Below are positions 25,807 through 58,623 of a DNA stretch of 64,000 bases, piece by piece (within the stretch, counting starts at the first letter, position 1; each line of letters starts with the position of its first letter). This DNA comes from Hyphomicrobiales bacterium (GTDB lineage: Bacteria; Pseudomonadota; Alphaproteobacteria; Rhizobiales; Rhizobiaceae): contig UCJA01000005.1 in the NCBI GenBank assembly GCA_900472675.1, positions 250,848 through 314,847 of the forward strand, read 5' to 3'. The translations under genes and the position numbers were made by a program. The notes beneath the pieces are model-generated. The model worked only from the letters and a program-made list of their open reading frames with translations. It searched no databases and had not been told where the DNA came from.

Positions 25807-25818
25807 GGAAAATAATCC
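25807..25818 (+). promoter_or_regulatory. Shared GTA motif GGAAAATAATCC upstream of gafYZ
   Basis: A 12-bp sequence 128 bp before the gafY start. The same 12-mer recurs exactly at 57147-57158 and 58583-58594, the latter abutting the GTA promoter. It is an imperfect palindrome (GGA-N6-TCC with a central AT). Here a weak -10-like AAATAA lies at 25841-25846, a distance compatible with an activator- or repressor-controlled promoter. Function is inference. Confidence 0.5.
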
Positions 25819-25945
25819 CAGTAAATGTGGGCGACAGCCCAAATAACCGGGCAAAGTCAAGCGCCGACGCAAAGCCAGATCTTGGCTTTATCCCCACTCA
25901 TGCTCTAGGGTGTATGAATTAATTCCTATTCACAGAGGAGTTGTC

Positions 25946-26368
25946 ATGCCCTTCGAGAAACCCGCCGAGCCTGTCTTCACGCCAGAGACGGGCGCCTTGC
26001 GATCCGCCCCCCTGGTCGGCCCGCCGCAACTGCCGGCAAGCCTGCCGCTCAAGACCGCCTGCCGCATCGTGCGCCAGATGACCGCCGAACTGGTGATGCT
26101 TCTGGGCGACCGGATCCTTTTGCGACGCGACCGCCGCCGCTTTGCCTGCCACGTGCGCCAGATTGCCATGTATGTCTGCCACGTCTCGCTGCAGGTGTCG
26201 CTCAGCGATATCGGACAGGCTTTCGGGCGCGACCGGACCACCGTCGGCCACGCCTGCCATGTGGTGGAAGACCGTCGCGACGATCCGGCCTTCGACGATT
26301 TCGTCTCCACCGTCGAGCGTCTTGTCTCCACCGTCTTCGGCCTGGCCGAGGTGCCGGCCTATGAGTGA
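25946..26368 (+). CDS. gafY: GafY-like GTA activator (DnaA domain IV-like HTH)
   Basis: 140 aa with a helix-turn-helix like the DNA-binding domain of DnaA: RQIAMYVCHVSLQVSLSDIGQAFGRDRTTVGHACHVVEDRRDD matches the DnaA signature region (A-M-Y-x-n-S-x-x-x-I-G-x-x-F-G-x-R-D-x-T-T-V). The AAA+ domain of DnaA is absent. The next gene encodes a DUF6456 protein. This pair corresponds to GafY/GafZ of Caulobacter, the split form of Rhodobacter GafA, which activates GTA transcription. GAGGAG precedes ATG 25946 by 6 nt. It overlaps gafZ by 8 nt. A motif shared with the GTA promoter lies upstream. Assignment is from motif and gene order, without a database search. Confidence 0.75.
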   Translation: MPFEKPAEPVFTPETGALRSAPLVGPPQLPASLPLKTACRIVRQMTAELVMLLGDRILLRRDRRRFACHVRQIAMYVCHVSLQVSLSDIGQAFGRDRTTVGHACHVVEDRRDDPAFDDFVSTVERLVSTVFGLAEVPAYE

Positions 26369-27194
26369 GCCGAAGCGAACGGTGAAATCGAAGGGAAAGT
26401 TGGAGGAGAGCAGGACGCAGCGGCGGCTGCTCCTGCGCCTGATCCGCCAGCTGCTGCACGGTCCCTGCCGGACGGTGGCCGGGGAGAGCGGGATCGAGGT
26501 CATCGGGAGCGAAACCCGTGTCTACCCGGAGGCACTGCTGCGCGAAGCACGCTCGCTCGGCCTTGTCGCCTGGACAGGTGCCACGATCGCCGCCACCGCC
26601 TCTGCAGCAACCCATCTGCGCCGCGCCCTGGTGGAGACAGAGGATGCCTTTGCCGACCAGCACCGCGAGGTGGTGGAGACGCAGGTGGAGGTGGAAACCG
26701 TCCGCCAGACGGCCCGTCGCAATCTCGCCGAATCACCGCTTGGCGCGATCGGGCGCCTGAAGGACCGCGACGGGCAGCCCTTCCTGCCGCAGGACGCCGT
26801 GGACGCGGGCGAGCGGCTGCTGGCGGACTTTAACCGGGGTCAGCTCCAGCCGCGCATCACCGCCTCCTGGGAGCCGCGGCTGGCCGGCAAGGGCGAGGGT
26901 CGCCGCAGCGCCGGCGGGCAGGAGATCGCCGATAGCGCCATGGCAGCAAGGCTGCGCGTCTCCCGGGCCATGGATGCCATGGGGCCGGAACTGGCAGGCG
27001 TTGCGCTGGATGTCTGCTGCTTTGGCAAGGGGCTCGAACTGGTGGAGCGGGAAAGGCAGTGGCCGGCGCGCTCCGCCAAGCTGATGCTGCGCACAGCCCT
27101 CCTGGCGCTTGCCCGCCATTACGCACCGCCGCCGGTCCGCCAGGCCGGTCGTGCCCACCATTGGGGCGCGGAGGACTATCGGCCGGAGCTGTGA
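26361..27194 (+). CDS. gafZ: GafZ-like GTA activator (DUF6456 domain)
   Basis: 277 aa. Start at ATG 26361 within the end of gafY (ATGAGTGA overlap). The N-terminal part is a helical segment of about 90 aa (RRLLLRLIRQLLHGPCR, then ALLREARSLGLV, winged-helix-like). The C-terminal DUF6456 domain begins at NLAESPLGAIGRLKDRDGQPFLPQDAVDAGERLLADFNRGQL and ends DVCCFGKGLELVERERQWPARSAKLMLRTALLALARHY. In Rhodobacter GafA the equivalent region contacts RNA polymerase omega, and in Caulobacter GafZ partners GafY to activate the GTA operon and allow read-through. The GTA genes of this genome start 31 kb downstream at 58.8 kb. Confidence 0.75.
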   Translation: MSEPKRTVKSKGKLEESRTQRRLLLRLIRQLLHGPCRTVAGESGIEVIGSETRVYPEALLREARSLGLVAWTGATIAATASAATHLRRALVETEDAFADQHREVVETQVEVETVRQTARRNLAESPLGAIGRLKDRDGQPFLPQDAVDAGERLLADFNRGQLQPRITASWEPRLAGKGEGRRSAGGQEIADSAMAARLRVSRAMDAMGPELAGVALDVCCFGKGLELVERERQWPARSAKLMLRTALLALARHYAPPPVRQAGRAHHWGAEDYRPEL

Positions 27195-27200
27195 CCAAGA

Positions 27201-27620
27201 TCAGGCGGCGCGGCGCATCGCCTCGTCGCGGATCCGCTTCACCATCGAGCGCAGGCCGTTTGCCCGCTGCGAAGACAGGTGCTCCACCAGGCCGATGCGG
27301 TTAAAGATCTCGATCGCATTGGTCGCGGCAATCTCGGATGCATGCTTGCCCGAATAGGCGGCGAGCACGATCGCCACCAGGCCGCGCACGATATGCGCAT
27401 CCGAATCGCCGTCGAAGGTCATCACCGGGTCGCTGCCCTGGTCCGCCGCGTGGCTGACCACCCAGACCTGGCTGGCGCAGCCCTGGACCTTGTTTTCGGC
27501 CGTCTTGTCGGCGTCAGGCAGGTCCGGCATCTGCTTGCCAAGCTCGATCACATAGCGGTAGCGGTCTTCCCATTCGTCGAGATAGGCAAAATCGTCGAGG
27601 ATCTTTTCGAGGCTGGCCAT
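27201..27620 (-). CDS. sufE: SufE-type cysteine desulfurase activator
   Basis: 139 aa. SufE accepts sulfane sulfur from SufS for Fe-S cluster assembly. The acceptor Cys lies in KVQGCASQVW (Cys48), preceded by the family N-terminus LEKILDDFAYLDEWEDRYRYVIELGK and followed by HIVRGLVAIVLAAYSGK and GLVEHLSSQRANGLRSMVKRI. GGAG lies 6 nt before ATG 27620; an open frame upstream is not part of the fold. It is convergent with gafZ, with 6 bp between the stops. The rest of the suf operon is not here. Confidence 0.93.
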   Translation of the reverse strand: MASLEKILDDFAYLDEWEDRYRYVIELGKQMPDLPDADKTAENKVQGCASQVWVVSHAADQGSDPVMTFDGDSDAHIVRGLVAIVLAAYSGKHASEIAATNAIEIFNRIGLVEHLSSQRANGLRSMVKRIRDEAMRRAA

Positions 27621-27776
27621 GCGTGCTCCACTGTCGTGAGGGCAGATATAGGCATTCTCGACTAAGGATAAAGAGAAAAGAGCCGCCGGGGCGGTGCGGC
27701 GAACCGCCTCCACGTCGTTGCGGGCGGCTGCCTGGCGTGCCAGACTAGGGGCCGCATGACACGGCAAGGAGCCATC

Positions 27777-28361
27777 GTGGTTACCGTTCTCGGCCTGCAT
27801 GGCTCATCCGGGCGACCGGCCAGTATAAGCAGCATCATCGACGCTCTAGATCTGCAGGCGGAGGTCCACTGTCCGCAAGGTCGGTTTGCCGATGGCACGG
27901 GATTCACCTTCTTCCGGCGCAATCCAGATTTCAGCATTCCGCAAGAGCTGCTGCTGGAACTGGCACGCGAGAGCTTTGCCCCTGACGGCTTTGCAGGCCT
28001 TCAGGATGAGGAGCCTTTGGCTCTGGTGGGGTATTCCAGCGGCGCCGTCTTTGCCACTGCCCAATTGGCCGTTGCCCCGCAGCGCATCGCCGGGGCTATC
28101 CTCCTGCGTCCGCAGGTGCTGGCCGAGGATTTCCTCTTCCCGGCCTTGAACGGAGCGCCCGTTCTCCTCCTGTCCGGCCTTCGCGACCCCAGGCGCAAGC
28201 CGCATCACGCGACGATGCTTGCCGCACAACTGCAAAAGGCTGGAGCGCGGGTCACCCACCACGCCCTCGACACGGGTCATGAACCGGCGCCGGAGGACGT
28301 GTCGCTGGCGCGCGCCTGGATCGCCGATCATCTGCCGCAGTTGCTGAGCCCGCAGCCCTGA
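27777..28361 (+). CDS. Alpha/beta hydrolase (carboxylesterase/phospholipase type)
   Basis: About 194 aa. It has the serine-hydrolase motif GYSSG, an LHGSSG oxyanion segment near the N-terminus, Asp in LSGLRDPRR and His in DTGHEPAP, the order seen in the small dienelactone-hydrolase/YpfH-type esterases. The GTG at 27777 has AAGGAG 5 nt upstream and places the first strand (VTVLGLHG) correctly; an ATG at 27756 has no ribosome site. The substrate is unknown. It is divergent from sufE and convergent with the DUF5330 gene. Confidence 0.83.
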   Translation: MVTVLGLHGSSGRPASISSIIDALDLQAEVHCPQGRFADGTGFTFFRRNPDFSIPQELLLELARESFAPDGFAGLQDEEPLALVGYSSGAVFATAQLAVAPQRIAGAILLRPQVLAEDFLFPALNGAPVLLLSGLRDPRRKPHHATMLAAQLQKAGARVTHHALDTGHEPAPEDVSLARAWIADHLPQLLSPQP

Positions 28362-28393
28362 CCGCTCGGACGTAGGCACAGCTTAGGAACCCG

Positions 28394-28430
28394 CAAAAAA
28401 AGCGCCGTGAGGGGTTCATTCCTCACGGCG
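28394..28430 (-). terminator. Rho-independent terminator (minus strand)
   Basis: CGCCGTGAGG (28403-28412) and CCTCACGGCG (28421-28430) form a 10-bp stem. On the minus strand it is followed by seven T (28401-28395). It ends the DUF5330 transcript, whose stop is at 28523. Confidence 0.88.
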
Positions 28431-28522
28431 TCAGCAAAGGCTGCAGTTGAACAGGCAGTCAGGCGCCGGAACCAATGGCTGGAAAGCCGGCGCAAGGGGT
28501 TGAAAGGGAAGGGTGCCGCAGG

Positions 28523-28942
28523 TCAGTGATTGGCGGGGCGACGCTGCGGCAAAGGCACGGTGCCGGTAAATACGGGGTCCGAGACGGGCGTGGCAGAGGC
28601 CATGGCCTTGGCCGGAAAGGGGGCGGGATCGGGGTCGGAACGCTCGGCCATGGCAGGCTCCTGGTCGCCGAACTGCTTGTCGAGCAGCTCGAAGGCAACG
28701 CGGGCGCCTTCAGTGGCGCGCACACCAAGGGCTGCAAATGTCTCGGAACCCTTTTCGCAGACTTCGGGCCTCTCGCCGCAGATGGCGCTCAAATACTGGT
28801 AGGCCTGCGTTGCGGCGGTGACCGCATCACCCATCTGGAATGACTTGGTGCCTTCGATCTCCGTCGCTGGCTTGCTGCTGAAATAGGAGAGCACCACCAG
28901 CACGGCTGCAAAGAACACGCTTCCCTTGATCAGAAACCACAT
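28523..28942 (-). CDS. DUF5330 family membrane-anchored protein
   Basis: 139 aa. It has an N-terminal transmembrane anchor (MWFLIKGSVFFAAVLVVLSYF), then a periplasmic helical domain with FQMGDAVTAATQAYQYLSAICGERPEVCEKG (two Cys, probable disulphide) and a proline-rich C-terminus. This matches the rhizobial DUF5330 family, whose function is unknown. ATG 28942 opens the hydrophobic anchor directly; the longer frame upstream lacks similarity. It has its own terminator at 28394-28430. Confidence 0.8.
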   Translation of the reverse strand: MWFLIKGSVFFAAVLVVLSYFSSKPATEIEGTKSFQMGDAVTAATQAYQYLSAICGERPEVCEKGSETFAALGVRATEGARVAFELLDKQFGDQEPAMAERSDPDPAPFPAKAMASATPVSDPVFTGTVPLPQRRPANH

Positions 28943-29378
28943 CGCCCTGTCCACCTGTCTTGCCCAAAGCTCATGCTCGGGTCGCCGGTCTCTCCCGGTC
29001 TTGGCAGCAACTCTAGTCCCCGGAAGACAACACGCCTTTGACCGGTTCATTCGGATAAGCGGCAAATTTGCTTAAAATGCCGACGATCGCCTTCCGCTCA
29101 TCCTTTTCCCACAACTTTCGGTCGAAGTTTAAGCACTACGGTTAAGCATAAATGCGGCAGCCGCCCGTAAGTGCCACGCTTTTGCGGCCTTCTTCGCCCA
29201 AATGGTTAACGCGCATCGGAAAATGAAGGCAAATCCGCCGCTTACGCCCTGTTAACCACGACCGGAATTGCCCCGGCCTGCCTGTTCCAAACCGGGATAA
29301 ACCCACGTTTTGCGGCCTCTCGCATCCCTCTCTTTTATCCTTTCCTTAAGTCGCCGAGACCTATTGTCGGGGTCAGAG
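28943..29378. other. Intergenic region between DUF5330 gene and divJ
   Basis: 436 bp without a convincing gene. It is richer in A and T than its surroundings and holds several TTAA words (near 29129-29145, 29203 and 29251), but none forms a TTAA-N7-TTAA CtrA box. It presumably carries the promoters of the two divergent genes. Confidence 0.5.
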
Positions 29379-30941
29379 ATGAGTTCTGCGTCAGGGTTTT
29401 GTGTGAGCGTATTGAGTAACATTGCTGGGGTAGCGGTGCTGTTCGTCGACAAGACGTCGGCCCGCTGGCTGTCCCGCCTGGGAAACAACCAGGCGGCGCG
29501 TGCCGGCGATATCGCCGTGCTGCGGCGTCTCTTCTTCTCGGGCGCGCTCGCCTTCCTCCTGGTGCCGCTCGTGCTGACCCTGGTCTTGACCCCGGCGCTT
29601 GCACTGCCGGTCGGTGCAGCCCTGGTGGCGGCCCTCTTCCTGATGCTTGCAGCGCTCGCCTTCCTGCTGCCGGTCCATAATCTTCCGCCGCAGGCCCAGC
29701 CCGCCGGCGACGACCTCGCCTTCGAGGTCTGCCCGGGCCTATCCCTGATGCTCGATCCGCAGGGCCTCGTCGAAAAGATCGGCGGCCGCGATCGCAACGC
29801 CTTTCCCGTGATGCTGCGCGAAGGCGCCGGCCAGACGCTCGCCGAACTCGTCCATGTCTCGGATCGCATCGCGCTGGTTCAGGCGGTCGATCTGCTGCGC
29901 CAGGGTCAGTCTGGAACCACGGTCGATATCCGCATCGAACGGCCGCTGTCGGCTTCGGCCGGGCGTCAGTTCCTGCATGTCCGGCTGGATCTTGCCGCCA
30001 TCCGCAACACCGACGGCGAACTCGCCCAGATCTTTGCCCAGGCCCGCGACTGGACCGAGGAAGAGATGCTACGCGTCGAGGCAGAAAGCCGCACCGCCGA
30101 AGCCCATTCCGCCCATGAAGCCAAGTCGCGCTTCCTGGCCGCCGTCAGCCATGAGCTTCGCACCCCGCTCAATGCCATCCTCGGCTTCTCCGACGTGCTG
30201 GCCGGCGAATACTTCGGCAAGCTCGCCAACGACCGCCAGCGCGAATACGTCGGCCTCATCCGCCAGTCCGGCGGCCATCTCCTGTCCGTGGTCAACACCA
30301 TGCTCGACATGTCGAAGATTGAGACCGGCCGCTACGAACTGCTCGCCGAACCCTTCCCGATCGCCGAAGCCATGGAAACCTGCCGCGCCATGCTGGATCT
30401 CTCCGCGCGCGAAAAGGGCGTGGCGCTCACCACGCGCGCCTCGCGCACGATAGGCGAAGTGGTGGCCGATCGCCGCGCCATGCAGCAGGTGCTGATCAAC
30501 CTTGCCGGCAATGCCATCAAGTTCACCAAGGCCGGTGGCATCGTCTCGATCGATGCCAGCATCGAGGCCGGAGAACTGGTGATCTCGGTGAGCGATACCG
30601 GCATCGGCATTGCCGAAGACAAGCTCGCCATGATCGGCCAGCCCTTCATGCAGGTACAGAATGATTACACCCGCCACTACGAAGGCACGGGCCTTGGCCT
30701 GTCGCTGGTCAAGGGCCTGGTGGCGCTGCACGGCGGCCGCTTCCAGATCGCCAGCCGGCCTGGGGAGGGGACAATTGTCACGATCTCATTGCCCGCGGAC
30801 GGTTCGGGTGTTTATAACGACGAGGACGACACCGCCGGCGAGATGGTGGAGTTTCCGCCGCGGCTGAAGCCCATCCGTCAGCCGATCCAACTGGACCAAC
30901 GGGAATTTACAGATGAACGGGCGGAAGCAAAAATCGCCTGA
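29379..30941 (+). CDS. divJ: DivJ-like sensor histidine kinase
   Basis: 520 aa. Two or three N-terminal transmembrane helices (FFSGALAFLLVPLVLTLVL, VGAALVAALFLMLAALAFLL) are followed by a PAS-like region, then the HisKA domain with the phospho-acceptor in AAVSHELRTPLN (His258) and an HATPase_c domain with N box (LINLAGNAIKFT), G1 (SVSDTGIGIAED) and G2 (HYEGTGLGLSLV). It resembles the DivJ/PleC kinases of the DivK-CtrA cell-cycle pathway, and its position close to a Ros/MucR gene agrees with my recollection of Agrobacterium. The ATG at 29379 has only a weak ribosome site. It overlaps the next gene by 29 nt. Confidence 0.75.
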   Translation: MSSASGFCVSVLSNIAGVAVLFVDKTSARWLSRLGNNQAARAGDIAVLRRLFFSGALAFLLVPLVLTLVLTPALALPVGAALVAALFLMLAALAFLLPVHNLPPQAQPAGDDLAFEVCPGLSLMLDPQGLVEKIGGRDRNAFPVMLREGAGQTLAELVHVSDRIALVQAVDLLRQGQSGTTVDIRIERPLSASAGRQFLHVRLDLAAIRNTDGELAQIFAQARDWTEEEMLRVEAESRTAEAHSAHEAKSRFLAAVSHELRTPLNAILGFSDVLAGEYFGKLANDRQREYVGLIRQSGGHLLSVVNTMLDMSKIETGRYELLAEPFPIAEAMETCRAMLDLSAREKGVALTTRASRTIGEVVADRRAMQQVLINLAGNAIKFTKAGGIVSIDASIEAGELVISVSDTGIGIAEDKLAMIGQPFMQVQNDYTRHYEGTGLGLSLVKGLVALHGGRFQIASRPGEGTIVTISLPADGSGVYNDEDDTAGEMVEFPPRLKPIRQPIQLDQREFTDERAEAKIA

Positions 30942-32085
30942 TCCCAGGCGAACGGGCAAGAAGCAGCCCGCCCGCCAGCCGGGCTTGCCGCTGCGCCTCC
31001 TGTCGGGGGCGGGCGGACTTGTTGCGCGCAATCCCAAGCCGCTGATCGGCGTTGCAGGCTTTGCGGTGCTGTTCTCCTTCGTGGCCGCCAATGCGCTGTG
31101 GTACCAGCCGACCGGCCATCCGGCACCTTTCCTAGCCACCCGCGATCCGGATGATCCGAACCGCATTGCCGGCTACCAGCCGCCGCGCCACACGGCACCG
31201 GGCGACGTCACCACCTTCCGCATCGAGCGGGCACCGGAGCCTGAGGACACGCCTCATCAGGTCACGCAGGAAGCGCCCGCGCCGGCAGCGCCCCAGACGG
31301 CGGCAAAGCCGGCAGGCACACCGTCTGCCGCACCTTTCCCTTCCCATGCCGGCACGCCGCCGCAGCCTTCACAACCCATGCCGGCCGCCCCGCCGCAGAT
31401 GGAGGCCACCCGCCCGCTGATTGCCGACGTGCAGCGTGAGCTCGCCCGCCGCGGCCTCTATGAGGGCGTGGAAGATGGCGTAATGGGCTCGCGCACCGCA
31501 GCCGCGATCACCGCCTTCCAGCGCGGCGCAGGCCTGCCGCAGACGGGCGAGGTCAGCCCGGAGCTACTCGGTTTCCTGAAGGCTCCGGCGTCCGATCCGG
31601 CCGCTGCGGAGCGCGCCGAAGCGCGGCCGCAGCAGGTGGCAGCACCCCTGCCAAAGCCCACCCGCACCCAGCAGACCGCATCACGGACGGCCGCCGCTAC
31701 ACCGGCGCCTGCCTCGTCCGCCGCGCGCAACGCGGCCTCGGCACGTCCCATGGAAAACATCGGCCTGCATGGCGATGATCCGGTGGCCGCCGCGATCCGC
31801 TCTTCCAACCGCAGCCCCATGATGACGCCGCCTGCCGATATCCCGACCGGCAGCGCTCGTCCTGTGCGCCCCGTGGCACCCGGACCGGCCGGCGCCACGC
31901 AACTCGTCCTGCAGATCCAGAAGGGCCTTGCCAATATCGCCTATACGGATGTGGAGACCGATGGTCTCGCCGGGGCCCAGACACGGGCAGCCATCCGCCG
32001 CTTCGAGAAGCACTACCGGCTTCCGGAAACGGGCGAACCCAATGAAGCAGTCCTGAAGAAATTGAAGGCGATCGGCGCGCTCTAA
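30913..32085 (+). CDS. Membrane-anchored protein with two peptidoglycan-binding domains
   Basis: 390 aa. It has a basic cytosolic N-terminus, one transmembrane helix (KPLIGVAGFAVLFSFVAANALWY), a long Pro/Ala-rich periplasmic linker, and two PG_binding_1 domains: DVQRELARRGLYEGVEDGVMGSRTAAAITAFQR around 176-210 and LQIQKGLANIAYTDVETDGLAGAQTRAAIRRFEKHY around 335-375. It overlaps the end of divJ by 29 nt, so the two are translationally linked, which suggests a link between cell-pole/cell-cycle signalling and the wall. No catalytic domain is present. Confidence 0.87.
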   Translation: MNGRKQKSPDPRRTGKKQPARQPGLPLRLLSGAGGLVARNPKPLIGVAGFAVLFSFVAANALWYQPTGHPAPFLATRDPDDPNRIAGYQPPRHTAPGDVTTFRIERAPEPEDTPHQVTQEAPAPAAPQTAAKPAGTPSAAPFPSHAGTPPQPSQPMPAAPPQMEATRPLIADVQRELARRGLYEGVEDGVMGSRTAAAITAFQRGAGLPQTGEVSPELLGFLKAPASDPAAAERAEARPQQVAAPLPKPTRTQQTASRTAAATPAPASSAARNAASARPMENIGLHGDDPVAAAIRSSNRSPMMTPPADIPTGSARPVRPVAPGPAGATQLVLQIQKGLANIAYTDVETDGLAGAQTRAAIRRFEKHYRLPETGEPNEAVLKKLKAIGAL

Positions 32086-32195
32086 AGGCTCGACCCTGAA
32101 AGGGGAGCGGGCGGCGCTAAGCAAACCCTAAAGGGCAGACTGCGCCCGGCGCCGGGCCGCAGGGGCCGTGGCATCCGGGCGCAAGCCGTCGTCGC

Positions 32196-32363
32196 TTAGA
32201 AAACGGCGAGATACTTCAGCATCGAGATGATACCGATGATGATGATGATAAGCTGGACGATCTGCTTGGCGCGACCATCGATCGGCAGGCGCGCGACGAG
32301 ATAGAGAACCAGTACGATTACCAGGAAGGTGATTAGAATGCTGATCAGCACGGAAGAACCCAA
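32196..32363 (-). CDS. Small two-helix membrane protein (Thivi_2564-like)
   Basis: 55 aa from a TTG at 32363 with AAGGAG 8-9 nt upstream: MGSSVLISILITFLVIVLVL, a short loop with LPIDGRAKQIVQ, then LIIIIIGIISMLKYLAVF. It resembles the Thivi_2564 family of tiny membrane proteins, of unknown function. An open frame continues upstream to 32576 but without a ribosome site or similarity. It converges with the peptidoglycan-binding protein gene; a GC-rich palindrome around 32138-32161 may serve as a bidirectional end. Confidence 0.65.
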   Translation of the reverse strand: MGSSVLISILITFLVIVLVLYLVARLPIDGRAKQIVQLIIIIIGIISMLKYLAVF

Positions 32364-32594
32364 AGCCCCAACTCCTTTTATGACAACGCCTTGACGGCAA
32401 TACGGCGTAACTATGGAGAGGCGGCGGAAAGGAAAGGGTCGCATTCGCGCCAATACGCGTTTTTTCGCATATTCGAAGCCTTTTGCCGGGCTTTCGTGGC
32501 CAAAATGCCCCGGATTCGCACGCCGGCTCTGGAAAATCGACGTGGCACCGCCGTTGCCTTTGCCGCTTTCCGCCAAAACAGGGTAAGACGAGCC

Positions 32595-32942
32595 ATGCGT
32601 CTCAGATCCGATCTTGTCGTCTCCGCCCTGACCCGCCGCGTCTTTTCAGCGGGCGGTTTCGCGGCTGTCGAGCACAAGGGGGCCGATGCGGCAGGCGCGA
32701 TCTTCATCCGCCATCGCCTGCGCGACGGGCTGGAAACCCTCTACGGCCCGGCACCCCAAAACTTCTTCGCGGAAGAGGACGACGGCGATCGCCGGTTCGA
32801 ACTGCGGCTGAGGGCGGCAGAACCGGAAGCGGTGGCCGACCTCATGGCGCGGGAGCGCCGCTTCGATCCGGACCTCTGGCTGCTGGAGCTGGAAACGGAC
32901 ACGGTCGACGGCCTGTTTCCGGTGGTCGACACCCAAGCCTGA
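32595..32942 (+). CDS. DUF1491 family protein
   Basis: 115 aa, matching the alphaproteobacterial DUF1491 pattern: RLRSDLVVSALTRRVFSAGGFAAVEHKGADAAGAIFI, YGPAPQNFFAEEDDGDRRF, and the RRFDPDLWLLELE end. It is soluble, with no known function. It starts at ATG 32595 just before the conserved first strand. It converges with the DUF2336 gene, with 31 bp between the stops. Confidence 0.85.
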   Translation: MRLRSDLVVSALTRRVFSAGGFAAVEHKGADAAGAIFIRHRLRDGLETLYGPAPQNFFAEEDDGDRRFELRLRAAEPEAVADLMARERRFDPDLWLLELETDTVDGLFPVVDTQA

Positions 32943-32973
32943 TCCAGGCCTCGGTCGGCGTGATCTGCCAAAG

Positions 32974-34676: not shown

Positions 34677-34853
34677 ATGGCAGAGATAGTTGTACTGAAC
34701 ACATGGCGTGTCGCACGCAATCGTCCGCCCCAGGTGCGGATCGGCGAAGTCGACGATGCGGCTGAAATCGTGTTCTTCACGGGCGTGCGCTACGAGCGCG
34801 TCGCCGAGCGCATGGACCGCAAGGCCGAAAATCACGCCGTCTGCGCCGATTAG
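34677..34853 (+). CDS. Small conserved-looking protein, unknown function
   Basis: 58 aa, from ATG 34677 with ACGGAGG 6 nt upstream. The protein is compact and charged (TWRVARNRPPQVRIGEVDDAAEIVFFTGVRYERV), with no signal or membrane segment. No family is assigned. Coding is supported by the strong ribosome site and amino-acid composition. It converges with the DUF1254 gene. Confidence 0.6.
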   Translation: MAEIVVLNTWRVARNRPPQVRIGEVDDAAEIVFFTGVRYERVAERMDRKAENHAVCAD

Positions 34854-34863
34854 TTTTGTTTGG

Positions 34864-36022: not shown

Positions 36023-36093
36023 GACAGGCTAGGGCCTCTGCAAAGCGGTCCGGGACGATTAGCACTGAGGGGCTTTTTAAACAATGGGAGCGT

Positions 36094-50869: not shown

Positions 50870-50933
50870 CGGGGGAGGGGCGCTCCGCATTGTCCGCGGG
50901 GCCGTTTCATGGTCCTGCTAGCGCGATCGCAAC

Positions 50934-51009
50934 GCCTTATACCATTTTCGCAATTCTAGTATAAGGCCGGGCCAGACGCCGCCGTGGAGCCACGGTGCGC
51001 CCACCGTGG
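50934..51009. terminator. Paired inverted repeats between convergent genes
   Basis: GCCTTATAC (50934-50942) with GTATAAGGC (50959-50967), then the hairpin CCACGGTG-CGCC-CACCGTGG (50990-51009). They lie between the stops of selO (50869) and the DHDPS-family gene (51032). Neither has a good T run, so this is a probable bidirectional, not classical, terminator. Confidence 0.5.
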
Positions 51010-51031
51010 CGAGCCTCCCAAGGCTTCCCTT

Positions 51032-51928
51032 CTATCCCTCCAACCCCCCGATGGCTGTTTCGATGGCGGGCAGGAGGTCGCTGGAGAGCGGCAGGATCGG
51101 GCGCGGCGGGAGAGCATCCGTCAGCCCAAGCAGACCGGCGGCGGCGTAGACGACGCGCAGGCTTCCATGCGTCTTGAACAGGTCCCAGAGCGGCGCAAAG
51201 AGGGCATCCAGGCGACGGCTCTCGGCGACATCGCCTTGGCTTGCGGCCCGCGTCAGGGCTGCGGCGGGTTTTGGAAACAGGCCCGCAACGACGCTGTACC
51301 AGGCATCGGCGCCGGCAAGCAGCGCTCCGCAAGCACCCCAATCGCCGGAATAGCCGATCTTGAACTCGGGCGGCACGCCGGCCCTTAGGCGCTTCATTTC
51401 GCCTGGAAAATCCATGTCCTTCGGCAGCGGCATCTTCACCGCGTGGATCCGCGCAAGGCCGGAGAGCCGCTGCAGCAGATCAGGGCTAAAGCTGAAATGG
51501 GTGGTCGAAGGGTTGTTGTAGATGCAGAGCGGCAGGTCCGTTGCACCCGCAACGGCTTCGAAATGCCGGAACACTTCCTCGTCGGTCAGCGGCGTGTAGG
51601 AAACCGGTGCCAGAAGCAGCGCGTCGGCCCTTTCGGCTGCGGCATCGCGAGCAAGCGCCTGTGCCTCGTCGGTGCGCAGCGTGCCGACCCCGACCATCAG
51701 CGGGATCTTGCCACGCACGACCTCCACCGCCGCCGCCACGGCCCGCCGCCGCTCCTCGCGGCTCAGATACATATAGACGCCGGTGCTGCCGAGGAGGCCG
51801 ATCGACTGGACGTCCGCTTGCAGGATCCGGTCAAGCAGGCGCTGCAAAACCTTGGTATCGACCACGCCGTCCGCGCTGGCAGGAGTGAGCGGGAAGGCGG
51901 ACAGGCCGGTAAAGGGGAAGGGGGACAT
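51032..51928 (-). CDS. Dihydrodipicolinate synthase / N-acetylneuraminate lyase family protein
   Basis: 298 aa TIM barrel. Family marks: TGLSAFPLTP at the start, GSTGVYMYLSREER, a Tyr-containing IYNNPSTT, and the Schiff-base lysine in IHAVKMPLP. It catalyses an aldol-type condensation or cleavage involving pyruvate or a related keto acid; the exact substrate is unclear, since the lysine-pathway dapA is normally more conserved. ATG 51928 was chosen because the 25 residues before it are not part of the fold. It is in the same direction as the catalase-pao genes, 127 bp after them. Confidence 0.87.
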   Translation of the reverse strand: MSPFPFTGLSAFPLTPASADGVVDTKVLQRLLDRILQADVQSIGLLGSTGVYMYLSREERRRAVAAAVEVVRGKIPLMVGVGTLRTDEAQALARDAAAERADALLLAPVSYTPLTDEEVFRHFEAVAGATDLPLCIYNNPSTTHFSFSPDLLQRLSGLARIHAVKMPLPKDMDFPGEMKRLRAGVPPEFKIGYSGDWGACGALLAGADAWYSVVAGLFPKPAAALTRAASQGDVAESRRLDALFAPLWDLFKTHGSLRVVYAAAGLLGLTDALPPRPILPLSSDLLPAIETAIGGLEG

Positions 51929-52055
51929 GCGGGGTGGCTCCGGGCTGCAAGACGATGCCGCACTATGCCCGACCTTCAACCCTGCGCAACCGGCAGCGCT
52001 CATGAAAACGCCGCCCGAGTGGGGCGGCGCTTATGGGGGTAATCCGGCAAGGGCC

Positions 52056-53210
52056 TCAGGTGGCGCCGGTCTGCGTCGCTTCCAGGGTCGAGGCTGGTGC
52101 GGCGCTAACCCCATGGCCGAACGGACAGGTGAGCGGCTCGGTGACCGGTGTCTCGTTGCGCTGCGAGCGGAAGGCGGACGACCGCTGGTAGGCGAGCTTG
52201 CGCAGCCGCATGATCGAGCCGAGCGGCTGGTGCGGGGCAATGCCGTTCCAGGGGCTGAAGTGCATGCCGTCGTCCACGGCTTCCGCCCGGTCTTCTGTCC
52301 AGGCGGTCTGCGGGCTGGCGGTGATCCGCGCGACCGTGACGAAGGGGCTCTTCTCCTCGTCCCAGGCCTCGATGCCTTCAACAGGCATGGCCTCGATGTC
52401 GGTGCAGAGCTGCACCTGCAGCTCCCAGACGGCGGTCTGGCTTTCGAAGAAACCCTGCACCGCATGGCGGATGGCATCGTCGTCCTTGCCCGTATCGACG
52501 GTGGCGCCTTCCAGCGCCTTGAGGCTTTCGGACGCCGGCACGATCGCAAACTTGGCGATGTAATCGCCATAGCGCAGCGGCAGCTGGGCGAAGAAGCTTT
52601 CGCCCAGAATATGCGTATAGGGATTGCCGCCCATGGTCTTCAGCGTCGCGCTTTCTGTGCCGACCGCTTCCAGCACCGCCTCGACGCCGCGGAATGCCTT
52701 GGACAGCAGTTCCTTGGCGCCTTCCATGCGGTCGGTTGTGGCCGCCAGCAGCTTCAGGTTCTTCAGGAAAGCCTTGCCGCTCGGGGAGTTGAATTCCTTG
52801 CCGTTGACCATGACGAAGTCCTGGCTGGTGGAATTCTCCGAGCCTGGTAGGCGGTCGCCGTCGACGTCGAGGATTTTGAGCGCCATGCCGCGCGGCGTCG
52901 ACACGCTGTCGTGCAGAAGGTCGCCCGGCGTTGTGGAAAGCCGGATCACCGCTTCACGGGTCGCAGGCTTGGCAAACAGGCCCTGGGCATATTGGGCCGG
53001 CAGATTTCCGAGCACTTCCACGCTGGCCTCCAGCAGCCCGTGGCTCTTCGCATGCACCGACCGGATGGCATGGCCGGAGTTGGCATAGGTGGTCTCAGAA
53101 ACCGACAGCATGGTCTCTGCCAGCTCGCGGGCCGTCTTCGGTTCGTCCGGCTGGATCTCCTCCACCTGAGGCGAAAAGCGAACGGGGGTGATTGCGGTAT
53201 GATCGATCAT
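52056..53210 (-). CDS. Catalase-like heme protein
   Basis: 384 aa of the reduced catalase superfamily: RSVHAKSHGLLEASVEV (distal His region), IRLSTTPGDLLHDSVSTPRGMALKI, and SQDFVMVNGKEF, with AFRSQRNETPVTEPL near the end. It is shorter than classic catalases and lacks the usual proximal R-x-x-x-Y signature as far as I can see, so it may be a heme peroxidase-like member. Its ATG overlaps the paoC stop by 4 nt. A role in removing H2O2 made by the oxidase is inference from this coupling. Confidence 0.83.
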   Translation of the reverse strand: MIDHTAITPVRFSPQVEEIQPDEPKTARELAETMLSVSETTYANSGHAIRSVHAKSHGLLEASVEVLGNLPAQYAQGLFAKPATREAVIRLSTTPGDLLHDSVSTPRGMALKILDVDGDRLPGSENSTSQDFVMVNGKEFNSPSGKAFLKNLKLLAATTDRMEGAKELLSKAFRGVEAVLEAVGTESATLKTMGGNPYTHILGESFFAQLPLRYGDYIAKFAIVPASESLKALEGATVDTGKDDDAIRHAVQGFFESQTAVWELQVQLCTDIEAMPVEGIEAWDEEKSPFVTVARITASPQTAWTEDRAEAVDDGMHFSPWNGIAPHQPLGSIMRLRKLAYQRSSAFRSQRNETPVTEPLTCPFGHGVSAAPASTLEATQTGAT

Positions 53211-55474
53211 TGCAGCGTCTCGCTTTCAAGGGCAGTCGCGCCCAGAACCTTGTCGATGGTGATTGGGAAGGAGCGGATGCGGCTTCCCGTGGCATGGAAG
53301 ATCGCGTTGGAGACGGCCGCAGCAACGCCGACGATACCGATTTCGCCAAGCCCCTTGACGCCGATCGGGCTTGCCTTGTCGTCGTCCTCTTCCACGAAGA
53401 TGACGTCGATCTCCTCAATGTCCGCATGTGCCGGCACGTGATATTCGGCAAGGTTGTGGTTCATGATCCGGCCGGTGCGGTGGTCCACCATGCCTTCCTC
53501 ATGAAGAGCCATGCCGATGCCCATCACCACGCCGCCCAGGATCTGGCTGCGGGCGGTCTTGGGGTTGAGGATACGGCCGGCAGCGACCGCATCGACCACG
53601 CGCGTCACCCGCACCTGACCCAGTTCCTCGTCGACCCGCACTTCGACAAACACCGCCGAATGGGTATAGGCCGAGTACTTCTTCTGGATCGACTTGTCCG
53701 GCTCGATCTTGGCGTGTTCCTCGATCTCGTCGAGACCGGCAGCCGCCATGATGTCGGAGAGCGCGATGCCGACCTGGTGGTTGGTTTCGAGCACCAGACG
53801 CCCTTCGGCGACCTCGACCTGCTCCTCGGTCGCCTTGGCGAGCGGTGAGTTGTCGATCTTCTGGGCAGCTTTCAGCAGCGTCGCGATCACCATCTTGGCG
53901 GCGACCTGCACGGCGGTACCCGACGAGGCCGCGGTCCAGGAACCGCCTTCGACGGTGGTCTTTGGAAGGCTGGAATCGCCGATCTTGACGGTGACGTCGG
54001 AGAGCGAAAGGTCGAAGGCCTCCGCCGCCAACTGGCCTAGGATCGTATAGGTGCCGGTACCGATATCGGAGGCAGCGGCAGAGACAGTGAGCTTGCCATC
54101 CGATGACAGCCGAACCTTGGCCTCGGCCGGCGACATCTGCGCCTCCCAGATGCCGGTTGCGACGCCCCAGCCGATCAGCTCGTTGCCTTCCCGCATGGAG
54201 CGCGGCTCATGCGAGCGCTCGGACCAGCCGAACCGTTCGGCACCTTCGCGGTAGCAGGCGTGCAGCGCCTTGGAGGTGAGGTCCTTGTCCGTGTTCTGGT
54301 CGCGGTGGATGAAGTTGATGACGCGCAGCTCCAGCGGGTCGATGCCGACCTCGTAGGCGAGCTCGTCCATCGCCGTTTCCAGCGCCGTAATGCCGGTTGC
54401 AGCACCGGGAGCACGCATGTCTCCGGGGGTGGGGACATCCAGCTTGGCGATCTCGTAGGAGATCGTCACGTTGTCGCACTTGTAGGCAAGGCCCGACCAG
54501 TTGGCGACATTCTCCTGATAGTCCTCGTAGCGCGAGGTGGCATGCAGGGCATGGTGCATCACCGACTGGAGATGGCCCTTGTCGTCGGCGGCCAGCGATA
54601 CGGTCTGGATGCTGGTCGGGCGCCAGGTGAGATAGAACATCTCCTGCCGGCTCATTTCGACCCGGACTGACCGTTTCAGGTCGAGGCTCGCCATCACCGC
54701 AAAGAACAGCTGGTGCTTGGGCCGCAGGCCCGACCCGAAGGCGCCGCCGACGTATGAGTTGCGCACCACCACCGTTTCCGGATCGAGCGAGAAGATGTTG
54801 CAGATATAGTCGTGGCTGTTCTGCGAGCCTTGCGACTTGTCGTGGATCAGGTAGCTGCCGTCCTCATGGCGGATCGCCGTGGTGGCAAACAGCTCCATCG
54901 GATTGTGATGCTCGCCCTCGATCGTGTATTCGGCCGAGATCTGGTGCGGCGCCTGGGCAAAGGCGGCTTCGGAGTCGCCACGCGGCTTCGGCGGCATGAA
55001 GGCCTGCATCCGCGGCACCGGTGGCACATAGGAATCACCCTGTTCGCGGGCAAGATCCGTGTGCGGCTCGCCGGCCTCGTAAGTCACCTGCACAAGCGCT
55101 GCCGCATCGCGCGCAGCCTCGAAACTGTCGGCAACCACAAGCGCCACCGGCTGGCCGTCGAACAGGATGCGGTCGTTGTTGAGCGGCCGCAACGGATGGC
55201 CGGGAAGGGCCACTTCGTCCTTCCACTTGGAGTCTCTCCAGGCGGCCTTGGGACGGTTTTCATAGGTGTAGATCTTCACGACGCCGGGGAAGGCTTCCGC
55301 CGCCGATGTGTCGATCTTGGTGATCGTGCCGGTCGCCACTGTGGAACAGACCACATAGCCGTGCAGCATGTCCGGTGCAGAATATTCGGCGGCATAGCCC
55401 GCCGTTCCGGTGACCTTGAGAGGTCCGTCGATCCGGGACAACGGCAGGCCGACGACCTTGGATGAATTGAACAT
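53207..55474 (-). CDS. paoC: Aldehyde oxidoreductase molybdenum-binding subunit (PaoC-like)
   Basis: 755 aa, xanthine dehydrogenase family large subunit. Two Ald_Xan_dh domains: SRIDGPLKVTGTAGYAAEY at the N-terminus, YVGGAFGSGLRPKHQLF binding the cofactor, GGSWTAASSGTAVQ, and the catalytic Glu in KGLGEIGIVG near the C-terminus. With PaoA and PaoB it forms a heterotrimer oxidising aldehydes. Order A-B-C on the minus strand matches E. coli paoABC; no PaoD insertion chaperone is adjacent. It starts 28 bp after paoB and overlaps the catalase-like gene. Confidence 0.92.
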   Translation of the reverse strand: MFNSSKVVGLPLSRIDGPLKVTGTAGYAAEYSAPDMLHGYVVCSTVATGTITKIDTSAAEAFPGVVKIYTYENRPKAAWRDSKWKDEVALPGHPLRPLNNDRILFDGQPVALVVADSFEAARDAAALVQVTYEAGEPHTDLAREQGDSYVPPVPRMQAFMPPKPRGDSEAAFAQAPHQISAEYTIEGEHHNPMELFATTAIRHEDGSYLIHDKSQGSQNSHDYICNIFSLDPETVVVRNSYVGGAFGSGLRPKHQLFFAVMASLDLKRSVRVEMSRQEMFYLTWRPTSIQTVSLAADDKGHLQSVMHHALHATSRYEDYQENVANWSGLAYKCDNVTISYEIAKLDVPTPGDMRAPGAATGITALETAMDELAYEVGIDPLELRVINFIHRDQNTDKDLTSKALHACYREGAERFGWSERSHEPRSMREGNELIGWGVATGIWEAQMSPAEAKVRLSSDGKLTVSAAASDIGTGTYTILGQLAAEAFDLSLSDVTVKIGDSSLPKTTVEGGSWTAASSGTAVQVAAKMVIATLLKAAQKIDNSPLAKATEEQVEVAEGRLVLETNHQVGIALSDIMAAAGLDEIEEHAKIEPDKSIQKKYSAYTHSAVFVEVRVDEELGQVRVTRVVDAVAAGRILNPKTARSQILGGVVMGIGMALHEEGMVDHRTGRIMNHNLAEYHVPAHADIEEIDVIFVEEDDDKASPIGVKGLGEIGIVGVAAAVSNAIFHATGSRIRSFPITIDKVLGATALESETLQ

Positions 55475-55501
55475 AGTCGGGTTCCTAATCTCTGGATCGG
55501 T

Positions 55502-56518
55502 CTACTGGATGGCCTTGACGGACTGGACCTGCGGACGACCGGAGGCCGCCTGCTTGAGGGCCCGCACGATCACCTTTTCCGCAAGCGGGATCTTGAAGTC
55601 GTTCTGGCCCTGGCCCTTGGCACCGGCGAGAAGCCGCTGCGCAATGTGCCGGAAGGTGACTTCCTCGGCCGGCTGCCCGGCAAATTCGGTCTCCGCCAGC
55701 ATGTCGCGCCACGGCTTGTGGGCGACACCGCCGAGCGCCACGCGCAGCTCGACGATCTTGCCGTCCGACACTTCCATGGCCGCCGCAACCGAGACCAGCG
55801 CAAAGGCATAGGAGAGGCGATCGCGCAGCTTCAGATAGGTGTGGTGGCCGGCGAAATGATTGCCCTCGAGCCTGACGGCAACCACCATCTCGCCCTGGGC
55901 CAGCGTGTTGTCGCTTTCCGGACGATCGCCCGGCAGGCGGTGGAAATCGGCAAACGGGATGTCGCGCTTGCCCTGTGGTCCTTCCACCTCGACCACCGCC
56001 GACAGCGCTGCCAGCGCCACGCACATGTCGGACGGATGGGTGGCGATGCAGTCTTCGCTGGCGCCAAGGATGGCGTGGATGCGGTTGATGCCACCGATCG
56101 CGCTGCAGCCCGACCCTGGCTCGCGCTTGTTGCAGGGCGTCGACGGGTCGTAGAAATAGTAGCAACGGGTGCGCTGGAGCAAATTGCCGCCGGTGGTGGC
56201 GGCATTGCGCAGCTGCGGCGAAGCACCGGCAAGGATGGCGCTCGACAGCAGCGGATAGCGCTCCTGCACCCGCGGGTCATAGGCAACGGTCGTATTGCTC
56301 ACCAGCGCGCCGATCCTCAAGCCCCCGTTCGGCAGTTCATCGATCTGCTTGAGCGGCAGCTTGTTGATATCGATGATCGAGCCGGGCTTGGCCACGTCGT
56401 ATTTCATCAGGTCGACGAGATTGGTGCCGCCGGCAAGAATCTGCGCCTGCGGATCGGAGGCAAGTGCTGCGACGGCTTCGGAGACGGTCTCGGCGCGCGT
56501 ATAGGAAAAATGTCTCAT
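55502..56518 (-). CDS. paoB: Aldehyde oxidoreductase FAD-binding subunit (PaoB-like)
   Basis: 338 aa. N-terminal FAD_binding_5 domain ([37 protein letters not shown]) and a C-terminal CO dehydrogenase flavoprotein domain. The segment [30 protein letters not shown] has the extra Cys cluster that in E. coli PaoB binds a [4Fe-4S] centre. It overlaps paoA by 4 nt. It passes electrons from the molybdenum centre to the acceptor. Confidence 0.92.
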
Positions 56519-57039
56519 TCTGCGGCCTCCCGAACTGGCGCCGCTTTGTCGGCGGCCATGACCTCCTCAATGGCATCGGCGATATTCGTATAGGCGCCGC
56601 AACGACAGAGATTGCCGCTCATCTGTTCGCGGATCTCGTGACGCTCATGGGCATGACCCTCCTTGACGAGCGCCACGGCGGAACAGATCTGGCCGGGCGT
56701 GCAATAGCCGCACTGGTAGGCGTCATGCTCCAGAAACGCCTTCTGCATCGGGTGCAGATTGTCCGGCGTGCCGAGGCCCTCGATCGTGGTGATCTCGGCG
56801 CCATCCAGTGAAACCGCCAGTTTCAGGCAGGAATTCATCCGCTCGCCGTCGATCATCACGGTGCAGGCACCGCACTGGCCGTGGTCGCAACCCTTCTTGG
56901 TGCCGGTAAGTTCAAGCTGTCCACGCAGGAGGTCCAGAAGGGACACCCAGGGGTGGAGATCGAAACTGCGCTTCTCGCCGTTGATGGTCAGCGAGACGGG
57001 ACAGGTTGCAGCGGTATGCGACTGCGAGCTGAGATCCAT
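56515..57039 (-). CDS. paoA: Aldehyde oxidoreductase 2Fe-2S subunit (PaoA-like)
   Basis: 174 aa with two [2Fe-2S] domains: the plant-type motif [14 protein letters not shown]...NSC and the helical [13 protein letters not shown]...NLCRCGAY. There is no Tat twin-arginine leader, unlike E. coli PaoA, so a cytosolic complex is expected. ATG 57039 was chosen; the longer frame to 57204 crosses the promoter region and the repeat at 57145. It is the first gene of paoABC-catalase. Confidence 0.92.
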
Positions 57040-57144
57040 GGGGAGACCCTTTCTATGGTGATGCCGCTTAACCCCATAAAAGGGAGCTTTGTTCCAAAGA
57101 CCGGGGCGCACGCTCGGCGGTTGCGGACGACAAAATATGCAATA

Positions 57145-57158
57145 TAGGAAAATAATCC
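57145..57158. repeat. 14-bp direct repeat, left copy (TAGGAAAATAATCC)
   Basis: A perfect match to 58581-58594. The two copies bracket the DUF1828 cassette, 1,436 bp apart. The copy also lies 106 bp upstream of paoA. The inner 12 bp equal the motif before gafY (25807-25818). Confidence 0.8.
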
Positions 57159-57261
57159 AAGGTCGGTCGCTAACCTTTTTGGCTCGACCCAAGCTGATGA
57201 ACATCGCCGCGACCGAGTGTGCTCAGTCGCGAATGGCGGCTTGAGCGCCGTCGCTTTCTTC

Positions 57262-58032
57262 CTATTGGTTTCCTAGCGCTTCCCTGATGATACGTGCGAC
57301 TGCAGCGTCTTCATCATGCCTGAAGATTGGCACCGTCGTCAGACGATTGGTTGCGCGTCTGCGCAGTGCCGTGGGGACTGAGTTATCCTGCTCCAACAAC
57401 GCGATGACCGAAATATCCTCTTTGACTTCGTACGTAGCTGTCTGGTGGAGAAAAATCGCGTCATGTACACGAGCCTCGGTGTTGCCGAAGAAGATTGCCA
57501 CCGGTGGACGATGCTTCGCTTCGACGATCATGTCCGGTTTGACCTCAGATAAACGCGCGCTGATGGCTTCCCCTTCACGGATATCCGCCATGTCGCCAAC
57601 GCCTGCTCGTATTGCCGTCGCGGCGTCCTCTCGAAATGTGGAAGTTACCTTTTCCTGCGTCAGGAGGAGAAAGTCGTTTATTCTGATCATTACACTAACG
57701 AAATCCAGGGATCGGCGCGGTAGTTCTTTCTCAGGAAAAGCTTCGGTCCTGATGGTCGCATCATCACCATCGAAGTAGGCGCCAACGCTGGTAAGCAGGC
57801 CATCGAGGGCTCTTCGGCGAGTATCAGTCTCGAAGTCCACTCCTGCTCCTTCGAGCAGTGGTATCGTCGCCCCATCGTCCTCAAGACGAAATTTACCATC
57901 TGCCAATTCGACAACATAGAAGGATACGCGATCTCCGTCGTCGCGCCTGAATGCAGTGCTGACCGCCAGGCCGTATGGGACGGTAGTAACTGTTATTTCG
58001 TTGCAAAACGCATTGCAGAGGTCAGCCTTCAT
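57262..58032 (-). CDS. DUF1828 domain-containing protein
   Basis: 256 aa. The N-terminal 90 residues fit DUF1828 (KADLCNAFCNEITVTTVPYGLAVSTAF, RVSFYVVELADGKFRLEDDGATIPLLEGAGVDF), followed by a DUF1829-like C-terminal region with KPDMIVEAKHRPPVAIFFGNTEARVHDAIF, which has the spacing of a nuclease-like core but is not proven. Genes of this type occur in mobile and defence contexts. It overlaps the upstream unknown gene by 4 nt and is preceded by GAGGGAGG. Base composition is lower in GC than its neighbours. It is bracketed by 14-bp direct repeats. Confidence 0.78.
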   Translation of the reverse strand: MKADLCNAFCNEITVTTVPYGLAVSTAFRRDDGDRVSFYVVELADGKFRLEDDGATIPLLEGAGVDFETDTRRRALDGLLTSVGAYFDGDDATIRTEAFPEKELPRRSLDFVSVMIRINDFLLLTQEKVTSTFREDAATAIRAGVGDMADIREGEAISARLSEVKPDMIVEAKHRPPVAIFFGNTEARVHDAIFLHQTATYEVKEDISVIALLEQDNSVPTALRRRATNRLTTVPIFRHDEDAAVARIIREALGNQ

Positions 58033-58523
58033 AGCTCGCCCTCCCTCTTATCGATCTTAAAAACCTTCACCGCACAATGGAGCGCAGAAGGGGCCGAAAG
58101 TTGGCTCTTCCCGAACGTAAACTCGGAGCGCCTGTGTTTATTTCCAGATTTTGGCAGACGAATGCCCCCGTAGCGGTTTGTCCCGGCGGAAATCGCACTG
58201 ATATCCTCGCAACGAGCGTGACAGTGCCAACCCGGTTCCGACGCATGATACTCGTAATCGCAAAGTACGGTTGTTTCCCCGGCACATGTGACACCGAGTG
58301 AAGCTCTAAATATCTGCTTACTCTCGTTAAGCAACAGGAGAACTCTGCACTCATGTCCGAGTGCGAAGAATGTTATGATGCGCCACCTGTAAAGTGGTCC
58401 CCACTTGTAGAATTTTGGCTTGGCCTTGCGCGATGGCCATTGGGCGCGGGGTATTTCCCCTTGCTTCCATTCCCCGGACCGAACCGAAGATTTCTCCGCC
58501 CCTATCAAAGCCCTCAGATCCAT
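58029..58523 (-). CDS. Unknown protein, partner of the DUF1828 protein
   Basis: 164 aa, not recognised. It has a basic N-terminal half (SRKAKPKFYKWGPLYRWRII), a hydrophobic strand (CRVLLLLNESKQIF), a Cys/His-rich middle (VTCAGETTVLCDYEYHASEPGWHCHARCED) that could bind zinc, and a polar C-terminus. Composition and lower GC suggest acquisition. The ATG at 58523 lacks an obvious ribosome site, so the start may be later. ATGA overlap with the DUF1828 gene implies joint translation. Confidence 0.6.
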   Translation of the reverse strand: MDLRALIGAEKSSVRSGEWKQGEIPRAQWPSRKAKPKFYKWGPLYRWRIITFFALGHECRVLLLLNESKQIFRASLGVTCAGETTVLCDYEYHASEPGWHCHARCEDISAISAGTNRYGGIRLPKSGNKHRRSEFTFGKSQLSAPSALHCAVKVFKIDKREGEL

Positions 58524-58580
58524 AGTGACATCGGTACCACTTATAGCGACGATTCACACGTATTATGTAAAAACACAACC

Positions 58581-58594
58581 TAGGAAAATAATCC
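58581..58594 (+). repeat. 14-bp direct repeat, right copy (TAGGAAAATAATCC)
   Basis: Identical to 57145-57158. It ends exactly one base before the -35 box of the promoter at 58595-58623, upstream of the GTA genes, and shares 12 bp with the sequence upstream of gafY. Confidence 0.8.
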
Positions 58595-58623
58595 TTGACG
58601 GCGTGACGGTGTTCGGCTAGTGT
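58595..58623 (+). promoter_or_regulatory. Probable promoter of the GTA cluster
   Basis: TTGACG (58595-58600), 17-nt spacer, TAGTGT (58618-58623). The GGAAAATAATCC motif directly abuts the -35, the position of a class II activator site. The leader to the first gene is about 175 nt. CtrA-type TTAA boxes were not found here. Confidence 0.65.

Follow-up and report, generated by a model that had tools for sequence, protein, structure and literature searches.

A conserved dyad shared by the gafYZ and gene transfer agent promoters of Rhizobiaceae, a candidate operator of a RogA-like, lambda CI/LexA-type regulator

The window analysed here is a stretch of 64,000 nucleotides from a Hyphomicrobiales bacterium of the Rhizobiaceae (assembly GCA_900472675.1, contig UCJA01000005.1, positions 250,848 to 314,847), which contains the activator genes gafY and gafZ and the beginning of the structural operon of a gene transfer agent (GTA), a domesticated virus that carries bacterial DNA from cell to cell. 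Both operons are preceded by the 12-mer GGAAAATAATCC, and sequence comparisons point, with a probability of roughly 0.64, to an autoregulated RogA-like repressor with operators at gafYZ, at its own gene and at the GTA structural promoter. The candidate regulator is a protein of 221 amino acids with a helix-turn-helix (HTH) and an S24 domain, similar to lambda CI and LexA, which is encoded outside the window (contig C22 of the source genome, G000, positions 262621-263283). Such a regulator would control its own gene through AGGAATAAAATCCT and would hold gafYZ down through a distal operator and a dyad in the core promoter. At the GTA promoter it would occupy an operator that runs into the first bases of the -35 element, with RNA polymerase being blocked as a consequence. 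The activator genes and the particle genes would thus represent two tiers under a single regulator.

GGAAAATAATCC occurs three times in the window, always on the plus strand (25807-25818, 57147-57158 and 58583-58594). These are also the only exact copies in the source genome (5,397,313 bases in 41 contigs), in which the reversed pattern has no match at all. First- and second-order Markov models, with parameters taken from the window, give an expectation of 0.10-0.19 copies per genome and 0.001-0.002 per window. The three copies, as well as an expectation well under one per 64 kb, had been proposed in a first-pass annotation of this DNA, and both are borne out. The genome-wide scan that it called for, with many unrelated intergenic copies as its concern, returned no more than these three in the source genome; in certain other lineages, described below, several copies lie outside GTA loci. 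If one mismatch is allowed, 18 places are found in the source genome as compared with 2 for the reversed pattern, and 9 of the 15 inexact places lie inside likely genes according to a rough coding test.

The copy at 58583-58594 forms part of the 16-bp dyad TAGGAAAATAATCCTT (58581-58596) and, as was noted earlier, directly abuts a -35 element, TTGACG (58595-58600), which is followed by a 17-bp spacer and TAGTGT (58618-58623). Sequence and conservation both support this GTA core promoter (58595-58623, plus strand), of which the -35 is near consensus. With a transcription start predicted near 58630, the centre of the operator is located at about -41.5. When the DNA upstream of the terminase genes is oriented and compared, TAGGAAAATARTCCTTGACGGCGTGACGG (at most 3 mismatches) is found at the GTA promoter in 56 of the 57 genomes of the genus, three of which (G013, G050 and G051) were placed via an exact motif match; the lone miss, G041, is a GTA remnant. 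The motif adjoins TTGAC with zero spacing in all 56 promoters. The same junction of motif and TTGAC is present in 174 of 394 genomes of the family, covering 58 of 109 genera, and in 63 of 297 genomes of the order, with the reversed control occurring in 2 and 3 genomes, respectively. Terminase DNA is found downstream of this motif-35 pattern in 24 of the 28 family loci examined (of 30) and in 19 of 30 order loci, counts in which some loci end early at contig ends and some order matches are unexplained multi-copy sites.

A comparable conservation within the genus is observed for the distal gafYZ operator (25807-25818, plus strand). The start codon of gafY (25946-26368, plus strand; DnaA_C domain) is most likely the ATG at 25946, 127 bp past the distal motif, since the longer frame is interrupted by a stop codon in most relatives; in the source genome this frame contains no stop. 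It is followed by gafZ (26367-27194, plus strand; DUF6456). The gafY promoter is readable in 56 of the 57 genus genomes, the gene being broken in G050, and in 51 of these 56 the distal motif is within one mismatch of GGAAWWWARTCC. Together with the 56 of 57 GTA promoters, this conservation strongly supports the initial proposal of an operator shared by gafYZ and the GTA operon. In addition, a second dyad of similar type, overlooked in the first-pass annotation, is located over the presumed -10 and start region of the gafY core promoter (TATGAATTAATTCCTAT, 25913-25929, plus strand) and is a candidate second operator, with GAA-N4-TTCC being present at this place in all 56 readable promoters. The two gafYZ dyads of the source genome are approximately 108 bp apart, centre to centre. 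Across the genus the gap between distal motif and core dyad is 95-100 bp in 50 genomes, 85-86 bp in 4 and 107 bp in 2, so that the classes differ by steps of about one helical turn. Looping between the two operators is only suggested by this spacing, since the independent events are few and the 50 genomes scatter over several bases.

The core dyad extends beyond the genus. Of 18 gafY loci from other families, most have, when inspected by eye, a dyad resembling TAGGA-N6-TCCTA at the corresponding position, for example TAGGAAGTTATTCCTA or, in L298 and L299, TAGGAAAATAATCATA, which approaches the GTA motif. Several of these families have GGAA-N4-TTCC, or nearly so, at the core. The dyad of the genus mostly corresponds to the same repeat with its first G replaced by T (TGAA-N4-TTCC), and the GTA and distal sites are usually one right-half base away from it. 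No clear distal counterpart was found in the 18 loci. Five have a site with at most one mismatch within 700 bp; in L302 such a site lies 70 bp upstream of the estimated gafY start. The other four are close to the core, and a distal site in other families was rejected.

Sites of the same frame are found before the gene of the 221-residue protein. Of 80 Rhizobiaceae loci, 68 have a perfect dyad within the 300 bp preceding this CI-like gene, as compared with 0.2 by shuffling; in two Shinella loci this dyad is GGAAAATAATCC itself and in three Ensifer loci GGAAAATAGTCC. In the source genome AGGAANNNNWTCCT occurs at 12 distinct places, one of which is the GTA promoter and another lies 164 bp before the CI-like gene. 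Base tables of the four site classes reveal a common frame, GGAA-N4-NTCC, the gafY core being TGAA-N4-TTCC. Homologues of the protein (E < 1e-15) are encoded in 218 of the 297 order genomes, with 54-91% identity among the matches listed, self excluded, and also in part of a class sample. The protein matches PF00717 and has no Pfam HTH match; N-terminal helices are visible in its structure model, for which the lambda repressor is the best structure match (E 2e-7). Ser144, Lys181 and Ala103-Gly104 are invariant in alignments of 14 and 22 CI-like sequences. By analogy with LexA these would be the catalytic residues, and Ser144 and Lys181 are 37 positions apart, as in LexA.

The motif and the CI-like gene also occur together. 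In the order sample, each of the 63 genomes with the motif-35 pattern contains the gene, and the pattern is absent from all 79 genomes without the gene (Fisher 3e-10); among gafZ-bearing genomes the pattern is present in 62 of 197 with the CI-like gene versus 0 of 38 without it (Fisher 3.6e-6), both values being too small because the genomes are related and their independence is overstated, and the E cut-off of 1e-15 for the gene having been chosen after the table was seen. Within families, the pattern is found in 3 of 5 genomes with the gene versus 0 of 6 without it in f11, and in 1 of 1 versus 0 of 4 in f40. gafZ is present in 62 of the 63 genomes with the pattern.

Caulobacter RogA (CCNA_00080) is described in PMC9632790 as a LexA-like protein of ~213 amino acids, with an N-terminal HTH and an S24 LexA/CI-like C-terminal domain, which binds the gafYZ core promoter. 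Two inverted repeats GGAA-N4-TTCC are present in this promoter and likewise in that of CCNA_02002. The rhizobial protein shares this CI/LexA-like architecture and may be the counterpart of RogA, and the dyad of the rhizobial gafYZ core promoter resembles the GGAA-N4-TTCC repeats. It has already been stated that RogA homologues are over-represented in Rhizobiales, where they may control gafYZ (PMC9632790). Unlike in Caulobacter, a matching operator is found here also at the GTA structural promoter and before the gene of the regulator itself. Repression at gafYZ is likely, judging from the position of the sites and from the Caulobacter precedent. At the GTA promoter repression is put ahead of activation, because the operator overlaps the -35 in a manner that fits blocking. 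The earlier annotation had offered either GafY or a repressor comparable to RogA as the reader of the site; the latter is favoured by the GGAA-N4-TTCC likeness, by the dyads at the gafY core and before the CI-like gene and by the co-occurrence, whereas GafY is less well supported. Among the titles and abstract openings listed by literature searches no account was found of rhizobial GTA regulation, of this operator in Rhizobiales or of RogA sites at the structural promoters of GTAs. For Rhizobiaceae at large, the present analysis names a testable operator, a likely protein and a feedback on the gene of that protein, and it suggests direct gating of the particle genes as well as of the activators. 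GTA induction in soil and symbiotic bacteria thereby becomes directly testable.

Besides the cautions attached to the co-occurrence values, several observations weigh against a RogA-like repressor at these sites. The strict motif-35 pattern is lacking in 155 of the 218 order genomes that have the CI-like gene, 12 of the 80 loci have no perfect site before this gene, and the loose pattern AGGAANNNNWTCCT is not enriched in the source genome (16 rows versus 24 for the control). The site before the CI-like gene is situated upstream of the presumed -35 at a variable distance, which is not the classic place for blocking. The right half of the GTA operator is ATCC or GTCC, and TTCC in 0 of 56 promoters. 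The structure model is of middling quality (mean predicted local distance difference test score, pLDDT, 72.6; predicted template modelling score, pTM, 0.48), with a template modelling (TM) score of 0.34 to the full-length lambda repressor. In PMC9632790, Caulobacter RogA is reported at gafYZ and CCNA_02002 alone, with none found at the GTA promoter, and is described as being without key self-cleavage residues. The Ser/Lys pair and Ala-Gly are retained in the rhizobial protein, which may therefore be cleavable, unlike RogA as described; its orthology to CCNA_00080 is putative, no Caulobacter sequence having been identified among the genomes compared or the 80 named loci. A final point, the altered distal gafY site of one clade, concerns GafY and is treated with it.

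The motif might alternatively be the binding element of GafY, which we consider quite unlikely. GafY bound at the distal site would then activate its own operon, the intervening DNA being bent by integration host factor (IHF), and GafY bound at -41.5, possibly in contact with sigma region 4, would activate the GTA operon. In Caulobacter, according to PMC11150451 and PMC9632790, GafY binds gafYZ, GTA and accessory promoters, far upstream and together with IHF; the GTA promoter, with AATCAT as its -35, needs both proteins and has its GafY element at -123 to -113 (PMC11150451), and no GafYZ motif could be predicted (PMC9632790). The rhizobial promoters resemble these in having a control element common to both operons, and the arrangement at gafYZ, where the distal site may be followed by an IHF-like ATCAR-N4-TT (12 of the 56 genus promoters, not including that of the source genome) and then by the core promoter, resembles the Caulobacter layout. 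They differ in that the motif abuts a -35 that is near consensus, as opposed to AATCAT. The half-sites TAATCC and TTTTCC may faintly recall the letters of a DnaA box. In G015, G023 and G032 the GafY helix GRDRTTVGHAC is replaced by GISRTSVREAC or GLSRTSVRETC, and together with this change the right half of the distal gafY site is degenerate (GGAAAAAAATCG, GGAAGAAAATCA), which favours GafY at that one site. The GTA motif of the same three genomes, however, is letter-identical to that of the source genome despite the altered helix. As the three belong to one clade, their evidence counts once. In G025, where the helix is ordinary, the distal site shows a similar degeneration. GafY as the reader is further weakened by the similar dyads at the gafY core and before the CI-like gene, and by the lack of the motif pattern in all 38 gafZ-bearing order genomes without that gene; the changed distal sites of G015, G023 and G032 still speak for it there.

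Less probable again is that the same CI-like protein acts with opposite sign, activating or priming the GTA promoter from -41.5 while repressing gafYZ. Lambda CI at OR2 activates PRM from about this position, and class II activation typically involves a fixed spacing, in line with the predicted operator centre and with the zero spacing in 56 of 56 genus promoters. The best structure match of the model is, moreover, the lambda repressor, and the likeness to lambda CI at OR/PRM includes a site before the regulator's own gene. Unlike lambda CI, the candidate is a host-encoded regulator of a domesticated element, and no triple-operator layout is seen. An activating role is difficult to reconcile with the overlap of the 16-bp operator and the -35 letters, with the variable spacing at the promoter of the CI-like gene, and with the finding in Caulobacter that loss of rogA turns the GTA on (PMC9632790). 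Finally, it is very improbable that another regulator reads the site and that the co-occurrence with the CI-like gene reflects ancestry: the source genome has five S24 matches, i.e. four besides the 221-residue protein, a ROS_MUCR (MucR-type) gene lies just upstream of gafY (25100-25678), and several XRE proteins also repress gafYZ in Caulobacter (PMC10688885), but the same-frame dyad that 68 of 80 loci have ahead of the CI-like gene and the contrasts within f11 and f40 argue against it.

Apart from the proposed RogA-like repressor, a further level of control may operate in the GTA leader. Terminator-like hairpins are found 101-191 bp past the motif start in 30 of the 56 genus genomes, versus 2.0 by shuffling (five mononucleotide shuffles per leader), and the same leader scan found none in the source genome. 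Where they are present, for example in L057 and L060, they take the form GGCCCGG-loop-CCGGGCC-T-run between the GTA promoter and the first gene. This layout resembles PR'-Q-tR' of phage lambda in its good core promoter, in a leader terminator ~100-190 bp past the motif and in GafZ as a candidate antiterminator; it differs in that the source genome has no such terminator and no Q-type site is shown. Taken together with the antiterminator role of GafZ in Caulobacter (PMC11150451), the leader hairpins suggest a lambda-like second gate in many species. The conserved spacer between the GTA -35 and -10 (58601-58617), which contains a TGACGG direct repeat, is a candidate GafZ element; in other families this spacer has AGCGTGACGCT-like palindromes. 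In a more far-reaching version of the repressor reading, unlikely as a whole, rhizobial GTAs would have one master switch, a CI-like repressor that is complete and able to cleave itself. This repressor would loop the two gafYZ operators and occupy its own gene as well as the GTA late promoter, RecA-stimulated cleavage upon DNA damage would open both tiers simultaneously, and GafZ would then carry polymerase through the leader terminator. Such a circuit would be lambda-like, but domesticated and rebuilt with a host gene at its centre.

Ahead of the gafY core dyad lies a TATCCCC element (TTTATCCCC, 25887-25895, plus strand), a candidate GafY site or -35 region. In 40 of the 56 genus promoters TCCCC precedes the core dyad by 23-25 bp, and the letters are reminiscent of a DnaA box. 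TATCCCC is also seen in gafY promoters of other families (L286-L304).

Copies of the motif elsewhere were examined in relatives of the source genome. The 57 genus genomes contain 100 exact copies of the 12-mer, with at least one in 50 genomes, as compared with 1 for the reversed pattern. In a first sorting 11 were near gafY, 39 within 6 kb of a terminase gene and 50 elsewhere; one G047 match sorted under terminase is actually a gafY site. Together with two further loci, the 50 make up a set of 52 outside the gafY and terminase groups. Of these, 33 are repeats of four stretches that are found in more than one genome and look like coding DNA, 3 (L100, L129 and L130) are GTA promoters belonging to decayed clusters, and 16 are singles, including L106, L128 and L137 with promoter-like surroundings. 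A wide regulon was rejected, and none of these loci is counted as part of one. Several copies per genome of the motif-35 layout are present at non-GTA places in G644, G509 and G574 (L258-L274), in G135 (L253-L257) and in G696 (L280-L281). The sites in G644, G509 and G574 often have terminator-like palindromes and small ORFs (open reading frames), hydrophobic by eye, within about 100 bp. GTA accessory genes were considered for the multi-copy sites (G135, G644, G509, G574, G550 and G696) and rejected: 10 of 20 nearby ORFs, some of which may be on the wrong strand, have a Pfam match, none of them GTA-like. A tRNA search of 32 loci and an Rfam search of 20 loci both found no match.

Downstream of the GTA promoter, a first ORF for which no family was found (58747-59463, plus strand) precedes the gene of the terminase large subunit (59273-60880, plus strand; Terminase_6N, Terminase_6C), and a GTA portal gene is also found at the terminase end of the window. 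The two motif copies placed earlier in front of gafY and of the GTA operon are indeed followed by promoters; the third, at 57147-57158 (plus strand), has no adjoining -35 or -10. In G016 and G043 the DNA of a CoxS gene runs via ATAGGAAAATAATCC straight into TTGACGG, with no insert. Because of this uninterrupted stretch the 57147 copy is, from sequence comparison, a relic of the GTA promoter, the left end of which was split off by an insert of 1,424 bp (57159-58582), and it was rejected as a functional site. A cursory look at both ends of the insert reveals no inverted repeat. The insert carries a DUF1828 gene (57262-58032) and an unknown gene (58029-58523), both on the minus strand, which together (57262-58523) are possibly an exchanged cassette at a GTA-adjacent spot. 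A homologous gene pair is located at the same place upstream of the GTA promoter in the distant G036, with one motif only, and a cassette that always duplicates the motif was rejected on this ground. Another stretch, of 2.9 kb and flanked by two TAGGAAAATAATCC copies, is situated upstream of the GTA promoter in L106 of G023 (1500-4436 in motif orientation); it contains an ORF that is transposase-like in look, with inverted ends TAAyATTATCTTTsACA, recognized by eye, just inside.

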